DNA of 42,753 bases, from contig CACZRD010000104.1 of assembly GCA_902783545.1 (NCBI GenBank), positions 1 through 42,753 of the forward strand, written 5' to 3'. The notes below the pieces were generated by a model. That model had not been told where the DNA came from and did no database searches. It saw only the letters and a list, made by a program, of their open reading frames with translations. The DNA is from an uncultured Bacteroidales bacterium (lineage in GTDB: Bacteria; Bacteroidota; Bacteroidia; Bacteroidales; Paludibacteraceae). A program made the translations under genes and the position numbers. Below are positions 9,940 to 16,589 of the stretch, piece after piece. Each line of letters opens with the position of its first letter. Positions within the stretch are counted from its first letter, which is position 1.

Positions 9940-10686
9940 TTAATCGTTTACTTTCGTCTTGCGCTTCAGTTCAAAGTCACGTCCCAAATAGTTATTGCGC
10001 ACTATCGGGTTAGCCGCCAACTCTTCCGGCGTGCCGTGGAACAGGATCTTGCCTTCAAACAACAGGTACGCCCTGTCGGTGATAGACAATGTCTCGTCCA
10101 CATTATGGTCGGTGATCAGGATGCCGATATTCTTGTCCTTGAGCCGCCATACAACGTCCTGAATCTCTTGCACGGCTATCGGGTCAACGCCGGCAAACGG
10201 CTCATCAAGCATGACGAACTTCGGTTCGATAGCCAGGCAGCGGGCTATCTCCGTGCGGCGGCGTTCACCCCCCGAGAGACGATCGCCGAGGTTCGTGCGA
10301 ACATGCTCCAGATTGAACTCACGGATAAGTTGCTCCAGTTTCTCGTATTGATAATCCTTAGGGAAATTGGTCATCTCCAGTACAGAGAGGATATTATCCT
10401 CCACCGTCATCTTCCGGAACACGGATGCCTCCTGCGGCAGATAACCGATGCCCAACTGCGCACGACGGTACATCGGATACGAGGTGATGTCAATGTTATC
10501 AAGAAAGATCTTACCGTGATTAGCCACCACCAGACCGGTGGTCATATAGAACGTCGTCGTTTTGCCTGCACCATTCGGACCAAGCAGACCGACGATCTCA
10601 CCCTGCTCCAAATGAATACTGACATCGTTGACGACAGTACGCTTACCATATTTCTTTACCAGATGTTCTGTGCGTAATGTTTGCAT
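9940..10686 (-). CDS. lptB: LPS export ABC transporter ATP-binding protein LptB
   Basis: LptB is the cytoplasmic ATPase of the LptB2FG complex that extracts LPS from the inner membrane and pushes it along the Lpt bridge to the cell surface. The 248-residue length is typical. Seen: Walker [10 protein letters not shown] (36-44), the Q-loop region [10 protein letters not shown] characteristic of LptB, signature LSGGE (137-141), Walker B FVMLDEP with DE at 161-162, and the H-loop TDHN. The C-terminus is slightly extended ([11 protein letters not shown]). It heads the minus-strand glycan cassette, with the next frame beginning at the base after its stop. This position ties the cassette to LPS rather than to an unrelated capsule. 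Confidence 0.95.
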
Positions 10687-10714: not shown

Positions 10715-11476
10715 TTACTCTATCTCCAACGAAACCGGACAATGATCGCTGTGCACAGCATCGCTATGGATACGTGCATCGCGCAGACGCTCGCGCAGCG
10801 ACTCGCTCACCCAGAAGTAGTCAATACGCCAGCCAGCATTGTGGGCACGCGCTCCGGCACGATACGACCACCAACTGTACATCTCCGGCGATTGACAGAA
10901 CACGCGGAACGTATCAATCAGTCCCGTCTGTTGCCAACGATCCATCCACTCGCGCTCTTCGGGCAGGAATCCGCTGACGCCGATCTGACGCTCCGGGTGG
11001 TTGATGTCAATGGGTTTATGGCAGATATTGAAGTCGCCGCAGATGATCACGTTCGGACGTTCCTTGCGGAGTTCATTGAGCCACTTGAGGAAGACCTCCA
11101 GGAAGTCCATCTTAAACTCCTGACGGATGTCGCCTGTCGTGCCGCTGGGCACATAGACGCACACAACAGTCAGTTCGCCGAAGTCAGCACGCAGCACTCG
11201 TCCTTCACGGTCATAGCGGTCGTTGCTCATGCCTGCGACAACCTTGTCAGCAGGCTGCTTGCTGAAGATACACACGCCGGAGTAACCTTTCTTTTCGGCA
11301 GAGTGGACATAACTTGTGTAGCCGAGTTCTGCGAACGCGGTGGTATCAATCTGCTCGGGTTGCGCCTTGCTCTCTTGGATGCAGAACACATCGGGGTTAG
11401 CCGTTGCCAGCCACTCTAACAAGCCCTTGCTCAACGCGGAGCGGATGCCGTTAACATTATACGATACGAGTTTCAT
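10715..11476 (-). CDS. xth: Exodeoxyribonuclease III (AP endonuclease)
   Basis: A 253-residue member of the ExoIII/APE1 branch of the endonuclease-exonuclease-phosphatase superfamily, which cleaves DNA 5' of abasic sites and removes 3' blocking groups in base excision repair. Seen: [10 protein letters not shown] at the N-terminus, FCIQESK (metal-binding Glu), VYVPSG, GDFNICH with the catalytic Asp/Asn pair, [14 protein letters not shown] and the closing [10 protein letters not shown]. Length and motif order match bacterial enzymes. It sits 20 nt downstream of the prodomain-containing M6 protease gene and 28 nt upstream of lptB, so it may be read through in a longer transcript, but nothing links it functionally to either side. 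Confidence 0.95.
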
Positions 11477-11496: not shown

Positions 11497-13113
11497 TCAG
11501 TGTAGCGATCTTCCTAACAAGTCGTAGTAGTCGCCATTGTACTCAATAAGGATTCTGCCCTCACGAAAAACCTTCTTTGCGGAGGTGTTTTGCTTTGTGT
11601 CCTGCACATCCAGATTGATGTTCTCGCCACCGCCACTGACTTGGAAACATATTTTCCCATTTTCCTCACGGATAGCCGTCACCGGATATGAAGTCAGCTC
11701 TGTAAACGAATCCGCCCCTGTTGGGTATGTATCACCGGGCTTACCGAAATAGCCGTTTTCGCGGTTGCTCTGGCTATATGCAGGTTTTTTGCCGTCTGCT
11801 TCCACAATATCCACTCCCATTACATACTGGCTGGCGTTGACCTTGTTGTTGCTCCACTTGCTCTCATCATAATTGATCTTCGTCACGAGCAGTCCGTGCC
11901 CGGGCAAGTACTGATCCCAACCGTCTTTCTGGCGATTTTCCAACAAGTAAAACTCTTTCGGGTTAGGATTAGTTCCAGTCATATTATGTTCGCCTGTTCG
12001 GGTCATCAGCACCGCGCTGTTCGCCGCACACAAAGCAGGTACCTCCACATCGCACGCGCTGTTGATGAGCGTGGGATGCAGCCATCCCATGTAGAACCGT
12101 TCGTAAGCCGAGTAGGCGGGAGGAGTGTTGCCGTCATTGTTGTATGGTCCATAATCCAGTATATCCCAAGCGCCCATGGTTTTGTGGGTAGCATTTTCAG
12201 TGGTTGCATATAAGTCCGGCAAGCCGAGTACATGCGAAAACTCGTGGCAGAACGTACCGATGCCGTCATGTTGCTTGCTATAGTAATCAAGTTCGTTGGA
12301 GCAGGCGTAGTTATCCACCCTCTTGCCGTCAACAATACAGTTCACACCGGTGTATGTCAGTCTGTAGTTATGCGGCCAAATATAGTTCTCGCCTGCACCA
12401 TCCGCTTCTCCATAGCCGGCGTAGATGACATACACGAAGTCCACCTGCCCGTCACCATCGTTGTCATAGAGGCTGAAATCCACCTCGTTGTTCACCAGTT
12501 CGCAAGCTTCCTTAATCATCTGGTCCGGGTGTTTGTCATCACCCTGACTGTCATTCTGACCGTAATATGCGTACCCCCGCGAAACGGTTACAGGACCTAC
12601 CACGTCAAATACAGGGTTATATTGTCCGCATGAGTTATCTTGGAAATACTGCCGTGCACTTCCTGACGAACTGATCCATCTTGTTCTGCCCTCGTCTTTA
12701 TAAGTATAACTGCGAGAGTAATTCTGCCCGTTAAGCATATTCTCCATTTCCTCATATGATGTCTGGAAAGTCAGATCAGAGAAGTTGACGAGGATCACCA
12801 ATCCACGAGGAGCAAGATTCAACGTGCCGACCTTCTGTTGCATGGCAACACGACGGGGATTGCTCATGTGGCGTGTTTGCAACTCTTCCTCCGACGGCAT
12901 GTGCGTCGGCTGGTAGAATCCTGCTGCATCGCGCTCCAGCATCTGCCCGTCGGCTGTGGTATAATAGTGGAAGAAAGCATCGCCGTGCAGATACGCTGTT
13001 ATCTGCGTACCGTCAGGTTGCGTGAGCTTCATCGCACCTCTGCGCGCAGGCTTGGCGAACACACAAAGCGCAACAACACAACATGCAAGCAAACAATATA
13101 TCTTCCGCCTCAT
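11497..13113 (-). CDS. Secreted M6-family metalloprotease with fused N-terminal prodomain
   Basis: A 538-residue secreted zinc protease of the immune-inhibitor-A type. Order: signal peptide (1-20), prodomain-like module (about 22-70: [22 protein letters not shown]), then the catalytic domain with HEFSH (H290, E291, H294) followed by GLPD (D300). DNDGDGQVD at 217-225 looks like a calcium loop. The last 26 residues ([18 protein letters not shown]) form a tail shared with two other secreted proteins in this window, probably a sorting signal. It lies 13 nt after a paralogous protease gene. The prodomain-like module is directly similar to the free-standing protein encoded at 14620-14988. Substrate is unknown; such enzymes usually degrade host or environmental proteins. 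Confidence 0.9.
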
Positions 13114-13126
13114 CTTCGTTTATTTG

Positions 13127-14617
13127 TTAATCCACCCGTGTACCATAGACGGAATACGTGCGTCCGTCTCTGCGGATCAGCAGTTGCCCGTCTTTGAGTA
13201 TCTTACCGGTCTGAGACTGTCCGTCGGTTGTTGCAGAGATAGCTGTCACTATCTTTCCTCCACGGTACTTGAACGACACGACACCATCCTCTGTCATCGT
13301 TATATCCGTGATAGCATGATCGGGAATACCGGTGTACTCCGTTGCGCCGCTCGGGAAAGCGTCTCCGGGTTTACCATAGTAACCATTGTCTGTGTTGGAT
13401 CCATCATAAGCCGGTGTCAGTCCGTCAGCCTCAATCAGATCCACACCAAAACTTCCAACAGTATTGTTTACTGTATTTTTGCTCCATCGTGCGGGTTGGT
13501 AGTCGATGCGCGTTATGAGCAGTCCTTCACCCGGGATTCCAATATCCCAACCTTTGTTTGTTGTGTTTTCCAGTCTATTTTCTAATAGATAGAATACGGT
13601 TGGGTTCGGATTCAATCCGTCGAGGTTATGTGTATCGCTCTCTGAAATTAGATAAGCCCGGTTGCTCGAAGCGATATCTGTCAGTTCTAAGTTATCTGCC
13701 TCTGTTATAAGCGTAGGTGTGAGCCAATCCAAGAAGAATCGCTCGTAGGCGGAAAGCGAAGGAGGAGTATGTGCGCCATTGTTGTACGGCCCTTCACACA
13801 TTAGATCCCATTCACCTAATAATTTCTGGTCATGCGTGTATTTTGTGTCGTACAGATCCGGCAATCCCAATGCATGGCAGTACTCGTGGCACGGCACACC
13901 AATGCCAGCGATAACAAGATTGTCTTTGGTAGAGAAAAAGCCATCCAATTCATTGCTGTATTCGCAAGCAGTAACTGTCTTGCCGTCATATGTGCCGCAA
14001 TTGCAATTGCCTACGTATTGTGGCCAGATAAGCGAATTCGGATCAGGAATAAGGTCTTTACGTGCAATGTAACCCGCATCATTCTTTCCGTAACCTGCGT
14101 AGAAGACATAAACGATATCAACTTGCCCATTATTATCAGAATCATACAGCGAGAAATCAACCGTATTGTCCACCAGCCCACAGGCTTCTGCTACCATACT
14201 CGTACCTGAACCATATTCTGCATATCCTTTAGATAATGTCACCGGGCCCACGATATCGAACTGCGGGTCGTATTGTCCCATGGACTGATCGTAGAAATAC
14301 TGCCGCACACTACCTGTCGCTCCATCCTTTGTCCAATTCGAGCCATTGAACATCGAATCCACCTCTGCCGGAGTAGAGATGAGTGCATAGTTGCTAAAGT
14401 TAACCATAATAACCAATACGCGCGGAATAATCGTCCGCGTACCGGCTACTTGTGTGGCTGTTGGCATGTATGCTGCCCCGGCATATTGCGGTTGAGACTG
14501 GCGTTGTGCCTCAATCTGTGCATACCACTCGGCCCTGCGTGAGGGATCACGCGGAGGAACAAGAGCCATACCGTATAGCGAGCAGCCAAGTAAAAGTATT
14601 GTCAAGTATTTGCGCAT
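13127..14617 (-). CDS. Secreted M6-family metalloprotease lacking the prodomain
   Basis: Paralogue of the following protease, 496 residues from ATG 14617. A longer frame exists upstream, but it only re-reads the previous gene; ATG 14617 opens a clear signal peptide (MRKYLTILLLGCSLYGMA) and sits 2 nt after the previous stop. Catalytic motif HEYCH (H244, E245, H248), GLPD (D254), calcium-type loop DSDNNGQVD near 159-167, and a C-terminal tail (KDGQLLIRRDGRTY, near 474-487). After the signal comes a short spacer and then the catalytic domain at about residue 64: the QP-G...L-GD...H module present in its paralogue is absent, and is instead encoded by the separate gene just upstream. An AAGGAGGA sequence, rare in this window, precedes the ATG by 6 nt. 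Confidence 0.9.
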   Translation of the reverse strand: MRKYLTILLLGCSLYGMALVPPRDPSRRAEWYAQIEAQRQSQPQYAGAAYMPTATQVAGTRTIIPRVLVIMVNFSNYALISTPAEVDSMFNGSNWTKDGATGSVRQYFYDQSMGQYDPQFDIVGPVTLSKGYAEYGSGTSMVAEACGLVDNTVDFSLYDSDNNGQVDIVYVFYAGYGKNDAGYIARKDLIPDPNSLIWPQYVGNCNCGTYDGKTVTACEYSNELDGFFSTKDNLVIAGIGVPCHEYCHALGLPDLYDTKYTHDQKLLGEWDLMCEGPYNNGAHTPPSLSAYERFFLDWLTPTLITEADNLELTDIASSNRAYLISESDTHNLDGLNPNPTVFYLLENRLENTTNKGWDIGIPGEGLLITRIDYQPARWSKNTVNNTVGSFGVDLIEADGLTPAYDGSNTDNGYYGKPGDAFPSGATEYTGIPDHAITDITMTEDGVVSFKYRGGKIVTAISATTDGQSQTGKILKDGQLLIRRDGRTYSVYGTRVD

Positions 14618-14619
14618 AA

Positions 14620-14988
14620 TCAGTCCTCCTTCATCTTTTGTATACCATGTTTGTTGAGCCAACGCTGCTCGCACTTGCTTCGCTTGGCGGCATCGTGGGC
14701 TTGACGGCGCGTGATGACCGCAACTTGCTGTTTCTCGCCGTTTATCTTGCGCGTCTTGAGTACAGCATAGCAAATCTTGCCTTTGTTGTCCTCTTTGACC
14801 TGCCAGCCGTCCACGGTCATAGTGAAGTGCCAGTGCTCATCACCCCGGAGAAACACATGCAGAGTGTCGCCGTTGGGTTGAATGCGGTTAATTACCCCGG
14901 GACGAGCGGGAACACGTGCCGGCTGCTGTGCTTGGCTGCTGAGTACGAATGCCGTACAAGCAAAAATTATAAATAACAATTTTTTCAT
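14620..14988 (-). CDS. Free-standing M6 prodomain-like secreted protein
   Basis: A 122-residue protein with its own signal peptide (MKKLLFIIFACTAFVLSSQA). The mature part reads PARPGVINRIQPNGDTL, FLRGDEHWHF and TVDGWQVKED, which aligns by eye with the N-terminal module of the M6 protease at 11497-13113 ([37 protein letters not shown]). A basic tail with paired residues follows (TRRQAHDAAKRSKCEQRW). It ends 2 nt before an M6 protease that lacks this module, and its last codons supply the purine-rich ribosome site for it. Likely role, by inference: a prodomain acting in trans as folding helper or inhibitor of the neighbouring protease. The alternative is a gene split by mutation, but the second signal peptide argues against that. 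Confidence 0.8.
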   Translation of the reverse strand: MKKLLFIIFACTAFVLSSQAQQPARVPARPGVINRIQPNGDTLHVFLRGDEHWHFTMTVDGWQVKEDNKGKICYAVLKTRKINGEKQQVAVITRRQAHDAAKRSKCEQRWLNKHGIQKMKED

Positions 14989-15014
14989 TGTAGCATTTTA
15001 CTTTGCTTAATGGT

Positions 15015-15084
15015 TCGATATTCCCTCGAGTATAGTCTAGGATTCCCTCGTATTACCCTCGATATACTCTCGATATTCCCTCGT
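15015..15084. repeat. Array of about six 11-bp units (ATTCCCTCG core)
   Basis: In the 114-nt gap between the mlaF stop and the prodomain gene start, the core ATTCCCTCG or a one- to two-base variant begins at 15020, 15042, 15052, 15064 and 15075. Spacing is 22, 10, 12 and 11 nt, with a degenerate unit filling the 22-nt step, so the period is about one helical turn. On the coding strand of the protease genes the unit reads CGAGGGAATAT. The array lies 27-96 nt before the prodomain ATG. The period suggests a cooperative protein-binding site or a simple minisatellite; the sequence alone does not decide. Confidence 0.75.
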
Positions 15085-15102
15085 TTATCCTGCACGTTTT
15101 TG

Positions 15103-15861
15103 TTACCTGTGCACTTTTTGTATCTCCTGGTAGAGTTGTGAGGCGAAGACAAAACTATTCAGCGCCTCGTTGTCGGCGTGGAAGATATCCTTGCGCGAAC
15201 CTTGCCACTCCTTCTTGCCACCTTTGAGGAAGATGATATTGTCACCTACCTCCATGATGGAGTTCATGTCGTGGGTGTTGACGACCGTGCAGATGTTGTA
15301 TTCTTGCGTGATGTCCTGAATAAGTTTGTCAATCACGAGCGATGTTTGCGGATCGAGACCTGAGTTCGGTTCGTCGCAGAACAGGTACTTCGGGTTCAGC
15401 GCTATGGCGCGGGCGATAGCCACACGTTTCTGCATACCGCCGGAAATCTCCGCAGGCATCAGAGTGAGTGCATGTTCGGCAATCTGCACACGGTTGAGGC
15501 AGAACCGTGCGCGCTCATCCATCTCATCCTTGCTCATGTGCCCGAACATCTGCATGGGGAAGAGTACGTTCTCCAATACTGTCATCGAGTCGAAGAGTGC
15601 TGAGCCTTGGAACAACACACCAACCTCGCGGTGTAGCATTCGGACTTCTTTCTCCTTCATGTTCGGCAGGTTTCTGCCATCGTACTCTATACGTCCGGAA
15701 TTGATAGGATGGATGCCGATGAGCGACTTGAGAAATACGGTCTTACCGCTGCCTGACTGTCCGATGATCATGTTGACCTTACCATCCTCAAACGTGGCAC
15801 TCACGTGATCGAGTACGAGCAGGTCGTCGAATTGTTTTACTATGTCAATTGCTTGAATCAT
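15103..15861 (-). CDS. mlaF: MlaF-like ABC transporter ATP-binding protein
   Basis: A 252-residue ATPase of the MlaFE lipid-transport type, which powers phospholipid movement between inner and outer membranes. Seen: Walker A GQSGSGKT (34-41), the MlaF-like stretch EVGVLFQGSALFDSMTV, signature SGGMQKR, Walker B YLFCDEP, and the H-loop NTHDM. The frame is open further upstream, but ATG 15861 overlaps the mlaE stop (ATGA) and starts the normal family N-terminus (MIQAIDIVKQFDD), so I chose it. An MCE-domain protein (MlaD-like) normally follows in Bacteroidota; here the strand continues into the 11-bp repeat array and the protease genes instead, so the partner must lie elsewhere. Confidence 0.92.
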   Translation of the reverse strand: MIQAIDIVKQFDDLLVLDHVSATFEDGKVNMIIGQSGSGKTVFLKSLIGIHPINSGRIEYDGRNLPNMKEKEVRMLHREVGVLFQGSALFDSMTVLENVLFPMQMFGHMSKDEMDERARFCLNRVQIAEHALTLMPAEISGGMQKRVAIARAIALNPKYLFCDEPNSGLDPQTSLVIDKLIQDITQEYNICTVVNTHDMNSIMEVGDNIIFLKGGKKEWQGSRKDIFHADNEALNSFVFASQLYQEIQKVHR

Positions 15862-16589
15862 AACAGTAGTCGTGACAGGACGAGGTCCAATAAAAGGATG
15901 ATAATATTCGAGTTCACCACAGCGTTCGTTGAAGCTCTGCCGACCTCCAGTGCACCGCCGTGCACCATATAACCGTAGTACGATGAGAGCGAGGTAATGA
16001 CATATGCAAAGAACAGTGACTTGATGATTCCGTACCACACGAAGTAGGGATTGAACGCATATTGCACGCCAACCAAGTAATCCGCCACGGTGATGATATC
16101 CGTGAATGCACCTACTGCCCAGCCACCTATCAGGCCGATAGCCGTCGAGAGGATGACCAGCATCGGCATCATGGTCATGAACGCCAAGATCTTCGGCAGA
16201 ATGAGATAGTTCGCAGAGTTCACCCCCATGATCTCCATGGCATCAATCTGTTCGGTGATGCGCATCGAACCTATCTCCGAGGCGATGTTCGAACCGACTT
16301 TTCCTGCCAATATCAGACAGAGGATCGTTGAAGAGAACTCCAACAAAAGCGTCTCACGCGTCAGCAGACCGACTATATACTTGGGCAAAAACGGGTTCTC
16401 GGTGTTCGTCTTTGCCTGGATGGTCAGAATTGCACCGATGAACAAAGAGATGACTATCACAATAGGCAAGGACTGCAAGCCTTGTTTCTCCAGTTCACGA
16501 CTATACTGCTGCCAGAACATACGCGGGCGATCCGGCAAGCGGAACACACGCGCCATCAATAGCCAATATTCTCCGAAATGCTTAATCAT
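15858..16589 (-). CDS. mlaE: MlaE-family phospholipid transporter permease
   Basis: A 243-residue integral membrane protein of the MlaE/YrbE family, the permease of the MCE lipid-transport ABC system. About five hydrophobic helices follow an N-terminal amphipathic stretch. Family hallmarks: VGSNIASEIGSMRITEQIDAME (written here only as the key region near 117-138: GS, E, EQIDA), LPKILA and the C-terminal YYGYMVHGGALEVGRAST. It sits in an unbroken overlap chain: its ATG overlaps the radA stop and its stop overlaps the mlaF ATG, both as ATGA. This couples synthesis of permease and ATPase, as expected for subunits of one complex. Confidence 0.93.
   Translation of the reverse strand: MIKHFGEYWLLMARVFRLPDRPRMFWQQYSRELEKQGLQSLPIVIVISLFIGAILTIQAKTNTENPFLPKYIVGLLTRETLLLEFSSTILCLILAGKVGSNIASEIGSMRITEQIDAMEIMGVNSANYLILPKILAFMTMMPMLVILSTAIGLIGGWAVGAFTDIITVADYLVGVQYAFNPYFVWYGIIKSLFFAYVITSLSSYYGYMVHGGALEVGRASTNAVVNSNIIILLLDLVLSRLLL

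Follow-up and report, generated by a model that had tools for sequence, protein, structure and literature searches.

Gene content of the locus

The window analysed here is the whole stretch of 42,753 nucleotides that forms contig 104 of an assembly from an uncultured Bacteroidales bacterium of the Paludibacteraceae (1.92 Mb in 149 contigs, 78% complete). On its minus strand the gene order is mlaE, mlaF-like, S, M6a, M6b, xth-like and lptB-like (Table 1), where S denotes a small gene for a secreted protein and M6a and M6b are tandem genes for metalloproteases of the M6 family. The names xth-like and lptB-like are ones that we presume to fit, and mlaF-like is likewise our assumption, taken from the neighbouring MlaE. 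The original prediction for this DNA had the coordinates and frames of S, M6a and M6b right, and its spacing of 2 nt between S and M6a agrees with those coordinates.

Table 1. Features of the S-M6 locus and its borders in the window
Feature	Position	Strand	Remarks
MlaE permease, upstream border	15858..16589	-	PF02405
mlaF-like ABC ATPase, bordering the slot upstream	15103..15861	-	ABC_tran; start set by eye within ORF 15103-16038
S, 122 aa, the module as a secreted protein of its own	14620..14988	-	leader ~1-21 by eye; module ~26-96; tail helix ~105-114
M6a, M6 metalloprotease without N-terminal module, 496 aa, own leader	13127..14617	-	frame differs from that of S
HEYCHALGLPD zinc-binding motif of M6a	13856..13888	-	
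M6b, 538 aa, second M6 metalloprotease of the tandem, with a module in cis	11497..13113	-	
Cis module of M6b, residues ~21-78, without the tail seen in S	12880..13053	-	
xth-like member of the exonuclease/endonuclease/phosphatase family, bordering the slot downstream	10715..11476	-	PF03372
lptB-like ABC ATPase, downstream border	9940..10686	-	ABC_tran

The two proteases are 42% identical, and the HExxHxxGxxD motif is intact in both. Each scores well above the cut-offs of the family models for such enzymes: for M6a and M6b respectively, 55.7 and 70.3 bits against a cut-off of 22 for Peptidase_M6 (PF05547), and 160 and 206.7 bits against 110.8 for TIGR03296. With D or H allowed at its last position, the zinc motif is present in all 118 M6 domains of the tree described below, M6a and M6b included. 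The leader of M6a, called by eye like the other signal peptides of S and the proteases, is followed by VPPR, comparable to the VPxR with which the module proteins start, and then by no module. The earlier reading of M6a as a protease with its own leader and without the module thus holds, there being no module match to it at E<=0.001 and no place for it among the best rows of the shuffle-tested profile search. SprA of the type IX secretion system (T9SS) is encoded in the genome. Neither M6 nor S matches a T9SS C-terminal-domain family, and the match of both M6s to NF052323 (T9SS-dependent inactivated M6) falls far under its cut-off.

The start of M6a is preceded by AAGGAGGA, so that the end of S does contain the stretch that had been put forward as a ribosome site. 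Among the six nearest relatives looked at, however, only L064 has anything similar (AAGGAG), and AAGGAGGA before M6a is therefore not a conserved signal. Between mlaF and S (14985-15110 of the window) a 19-nt unit occurs three times, in imperfect copies that are 74-100% alike.

Homology and predicted fold of S

The alignment of S with the N-terminal module of M6b, at first made by eye, stands up to scoring. BLAST finds 30% identity over 70 aa, a match that includes the signal peptide. Mature S against mature M6b gives 23.9 bits, the best of 2000 shuffles reaching 6.9, and a profile built from the S proteins of relatives, with that of the window excluded, gives 40.6 bits against M6b, the best of 1000 shuffles reaching 5.1. 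Judged by these scores, S is a homologue of the M6b N-terminal module beyond chance.

Neither S nor the module has a ready name. For the S of the window nothing in Pfam or NCBIfam matches beyond chance: a match to Moricin at E 0.24 is of the chance kind, and no Pfam family appears at 0.1. In five long M6 proteins that carry the module, this part was covered by no family at E<=0.01, and known inhibitor family profiles were matched neither by the S of the window nor by 51 other S proteins. All told, the Pfam and NCBIfam scans gave no convincing family for this M6-linked module of Bacteroidales. DUF1828 is matched weakly by 23 of 52 S proteins, the best at E 0.00086, and not at 0.1 by that of the window.

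AlphaFold2 models S alone with a mean pLDDT of 86.6 and a pTM of 0.68, placing strands at residues 32-36, 42-49, 54-58, 62-66, 72-82 and 85-96 and a helix at 105-114. For a natural S-M6 fusion, L203, modelled from 116 aligned rows, the corresponding values are 87.2 and 0.79; here the module and the catalytic domain are confident and the linker between them (~118-155) is disordered. Compared by order of elements, S and the fused module have the same predicted fold, six strands and one helix in the same sequence, so that the small protein is not, in these models, unlike the fused form.

Likeness to known M6 zymogens is another matter. The InhA2 zymogen (4yu5, 4yu6) shares an M6 catalytic domain with the L203 fusion, which matched only these two entries under E 0.001 when compared with PDB folds (E 1.8e-15). 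S alone, in contrast, matched nothing at E<=0.001, the M6 zymogens being absent among the best 50 of its 234 matches, and the S profile had no match among PDB sequences at E<=10. In these comparisons S thus showed none of the fold or sequence likeness to an M6 zymogen that would mark an InhA-type propeptide, and its lack of a fold match counts against reading S as a regulator of M6 proteases in trans.

Conservation of S and its chromosomal slot

S is widespread in the genus, the query finding a match at E<=0.001 in 112 of 121 genomes; in 9 of these 112 the best E is above 1e-9, and these weakest matches may be cis modules. The strongest places of the 112 furnished 100 loci from 99 genomes, 101 with the window; those of G134, G024 and G023, for example, lie outside this set. 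In 92 of the 101 loci S has an ORF to itself, 96-210 aa long, and in the other 9 it forms the N-terminal part of an M6 protein of 589-677 aa. Named records tell the same story, with 78 separate and 2 fused among the best 80 of 143, a set that overlaps the genus set.

An M6 gene on the same strand lies downstream of S in 90 of the 92 split loci; the two others, L081 and L148, have no M6 within the stretch covered. The close spacing is conserved, with a median gap of 21.5 nt, at most 30 nt in 56 of the 90 loci and at most 100 nt in 78, as computed with starts guessed by a simple rule. Both mlaF and xth flank S in 77 of 91 split loci and 7 of 9 fused ones, the window not being counted, and the mlaF-S-M6-xth slot is orthologous across the genus loci. 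In this genus, then, S is encoded next to its cognate protease, as a trans-prodomain would be. The pairing of the small gene with a module-less M6 likewise recurs, in 12 of the 90 split loci and in 11 named loci (L163-L173), 9 of which continue with an M6b-like protein. Arrays of several M6 proteases lie around or behind S in L111, L139, L140 and L157, one of the proteases in L139 being 1090 aa long.

S genes are under purifying selection: the median dN/dS is 0.12 over 819 pairs with dS under 2 and 70-98.5% identity, pairs that overlap in sharing sequences and in drawing on two overlapping locus sets. Invariant residues are present across sets of 44 and 52 S proteins. These observations bear on the idea that S is a functionless, decaying relic of a gene fission. 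Some S copies do stop before the tail (~96-104 aa), a few matches contain stops, and beyond the 9 of 121 genus genomes without a match at E<=0.001 there are 9 more with weak ones only. The low dN/dS, the invariant residues and the persistence of S as a separate gene, in other genera as well, nevertheless make a relic very improbable.

Nor is the split likely to be recent. In the clade of the window itself all 7 rows have S separate from M6, which together with the purifying selection rules out a recent split by mutation; the continuous genes that might have betrayed one do occur in relatives, in 9 of the 101 loci, but not in the nearest ones. An assembly artefact or sequencing frameshift that cut one gene in two is scarcely credible. 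The loci closest to that of the window among named records do come from metagenome-assembled genomes of Bacteroidales and Paludibacteraceae, several from rumen to judge by their titles and one named Candidatus Colicola coprequi, but two genes, with a leader of its own on the M6a counterpart, are found both in the 7 rows of the clade and in the 11 named loci (overlapping sets).

Repeated joining and parting of S and M6

In the tree of 118 M6 catalytic domains, all of them drawn from S loci, M6a and six proteases like it form one group (SH-aLRT 100). The wider clade around M6a (16 rows, SH-aLRT 99) comprises 9 proteases beside S, 7 fused to S and none with a cis-type module. M6b is placed in another, module-bearing group. 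When the best M6s of eight genomes without S were added, those of G129 and G115 fell next to L141_D1 (SH-aLRT 98), inside the wider clade of M6a.

Several simple histories are rejected by the catalytic-domain tree: a single clade of all fused proteins (p-AU 0.006, with L145_F forming a long branch), one clade of the module-less M6s beside S, and one clade of the fused together with the module-less M6s beside S (p-AU 0.003). The short module tree, by contrast, does not reject a single fusion origin (AU p 0.45). Since the catalytic domains do reject it, S and M6 have joined or parted more than once, and this repeated exchange, as read from the trees, is the best evidence that S and M6 work together.

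Does S stand in for a missing module?

The original prediction saw in S a prodomain supplied in trans to a protease that lacks it. Part of that reading has fared well, namely that S and the module represent one domain, that the two-gene form is conserved and that S is linked to M6. The part that has not is the supply of what M6a lacks, for 78 of the 90 M6s directly after S in split loci carry a module of their own. If S replaced a lost module, M6s without one should be found mainly beside S. With module presence scored by a profile threshold, a module is lacking in 12 of the 90 M6s beside S, in 8 of 40 outside S operons and in 3 of 8 of the best M6s of S-less genomes (Fisher p 0.43 and 0.10, respectively, for the comparison of the first with each of the others). 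Module-less M6s being no commoner beside S than elsewhere, the view of S as a substitute for a lost cis module, or as compensation for a missing cis prodomain, is not supported.

The comparison sets have their own composition. The M6s outside S operons are 40 selected genes in 30 genus genomes, of which a few share a contig with S and one, L361, comes from an S-less genome; by eye, 3 of the 8 module-less ones keep a short GDE-type remnant. Nine S-less genomes were searched and one had no M6 match, leaving eight, among whose best M6s L386 and L387 are not at the slot. Six further M6 matches of these genomes include two without a module (L388 and L389), for 5 of 14 in all. There is also a group of M6s in the genus that is without the module altogether (L341, L342, L343 and L346; 761-785 aa, with the mature start near SSNGGVRHLQP).

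Three of the S-less genomes, G129, G115 and G144, are listed as 95-96% complete. In each, mlaF is followed directly at the slot by an M6 with neither module nor S (loci L381, L382 and L385), and the weak profile matches in G115 and G144 are cis modules of other M6s. Two of these three M6s belong to the wider clade of M6a, so neither S nor the module is essential for M6. That S is an obligate trans prodomain or foldase, replacing the module missing from M6a, is accordingly unlikely. It would account well for a module-less M6a only 2 nt after S, and for an S-type module lying beside or fused to the protease in all 16 rows of the wider clade, rows that were drawn from S loci. Against it stand the cis modules of most M6s that follow S, the module-less M6s outside S operons and the three slots just described. 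A dispensable regulator fits better, since module-less M6s do occur without S.

S and the module beyond the genus

Profile matches to S extend to 201 of 250 genomes of the family, 93 of 295 of the order and 11 of 296 of the phylum, each a sample and some of them including members of the genus. Among the 46 order and phylum loci there are 45 module-bearing ORFs, with M6b of the window among them, these counts covering only the loci returned by profile searches and not every match. The M6 zinc motif lies in the same ORF in 36 of the 45, the motif being counted here because the module is itself part of the whole-protein M6 profile; a further 2 match that profile with the motif absent from the available stretch, and 7, mostly short stand-alone forms, have no M6 match.

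In the other genera of this family a module-bearing M6 often follows S. That said, 14 of the 17 loci listed from other genera and families have no M6 beside their stand-alone S, and the neighbours there look like relA, cinA or parE genes. Stand-alone S-type proteins without an adjoining M6 occur in L310, L315, L318, L322 and L326-L330; in L328-L330 the S-type gene stands before a parE-like gene, and the S proteins of L326 and L327, from another family, have by eye a lipoprotein-like leader. A 156-aa protein from a further family of the phylum (L254, 1291-1761) joins the module directly to what appears by eye to be a type IX secretion C-terminal domain, with no protease.

Such distributions would suit an accessory binding domain, with affinity for a substrate, a surface or a glycan and with no part in latency, S then acting alone or as an adaptor. 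The occurrence of stand-alone S without an M6 neighbour in other genera and families, in two cases with the lipoprotein-like leader, points in this direction, as do the lack of a significant PDB fold match for S in a library that includes the M6 zymogens and the absence of the module from M6s that retain their zinc motif. The module is nonetheless tied to M6 in long ORFs, and S to M6 operons and fusions, which makes a binding domain of this sort rather unlikely.

A proposed role for S

It is established that S is homologous to the M6 module, keeps its place before M6 at an orthologous slot, evolves under purifying selection and has fused with M6 more than once. Its occurrence in M6 operons and its fusion to M6 tie it to these proteases, and the conserved arrangement suggests, at the level of sequence, that S helps to control them. 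The preferred reading, which we consider evenly poised between right and wrong, is that S is a trans-encoded regulator of M6 proteases at the prodomain position. S would be the N-terminal domain of Bacteroidota M6 metalloproteases, the one in the propeptide position, made and secreted as a protein of its own; it would be exported together with the protease, bind the M6 catalytic domain in trans and, most likely, restrain it, as a periplasmic inhibitor or latency factor rather than as a protein indispensable for folding. In most sampled species S would act beside the cis module of the protease itself, and in the clade of the window it would be the only module left for M6a.

Several observations weigh against this regulatory role. 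Besides the missing fold match of S alone, they include the 14 loci of other genera and families where S has no M6 beside it, the three genomes whose slot lacks both S and module, and the distribution of the tail considered below. The conserved two-gene form of the M6 N-terminal module is in any case real; its function as a trans-prodomain is plausible. Should S act on M6 in trans, the slot would offer a natural system with cis, trans and fused versions of one domain at the same place, in which one could test directly what is gained by keeping a zymogen domain apart from its enzyme, and S would represent a possible class of M6 inhibitors.

Comparison with known systems

Prodomain-like proteins encoded apart from a protease are familiar as the stand-alone propeptide-like inhibitors I9, of subtilases, and I29, of papain-like enzymes. 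These are serine and cysteine protease systems, however, and the Pfam matches found for 52 S proteins include neither I9 nor I29. For M6, no description of a trans prodomain was found in the searchable literature, most subscription papers being outside its reach; the original prediction had known of none either.

A closer parallel may be found in streptococci. Spi, encoded beside the C10 cysteine protease SpeB of Streptococcus, is called "a propeptide analogue" and a specific inhibitor, with a suggested role in protecting the cell (PMC2873492). In both cases a small gene adjoins the gene of a secreted protease and its product is related to the pro-region of that protease. S differs in that its protease is of another catalytic class, in having no I69 match and in being sometimes fused to the protease; inhibition by S would be by analogy. 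S may therefore be comparable to the Spi/SpeB pair, and is not a member of the Spi family.

The same paper describes the Bfi proteins of Bacteroides fragilis, which are small, encoded within 35 bp of a C10 protease gene, staphostatin-like and, as characterised there, without significant identity to propeptides (PMC2873492). They resemble S, on this description, in being small proteins encoded near a protease gene in Bacteroidales, but differ in that S has a homologue in the M6 N-terminal module, whereas Bfi is reported to have no significant identity to propeptides.

The tail of S

The predicted helix that forms the tail of S was counted with a pattern of our own definition. In the genus loci it is found in 73 of 92 S proteins and 9 of 9 fused ones and in none of 94 cis modules. 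In a bolder form of the regulator reading, S would be the first of a family of genetically separate M6-specific prodomains, a periplasmic latency factor serving several M6s of one cell in trans, with the tail-less cis modules of this genus degenerating because S carries the tail and with repeated fusion and separation marking the exchange of a zymogen domain between cis and trans. We consider this extension less likely than not.

Outside the genus the pattern is present in 17 of 26 cis modules at the level of the order and in 5 of 16 at the level of the family. Most cis modules of other genera in the family are thus also without the tail, whose loss extends beyond this genus, a distribution that counts against S as a trans regulator. 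Adjacency to S is not the cause of the loss either, given that module-bearing M6s outside S operons are likewise tail-less, the pattern being present in 1 of 32; an effect from S elsewhere in the genome is possible.
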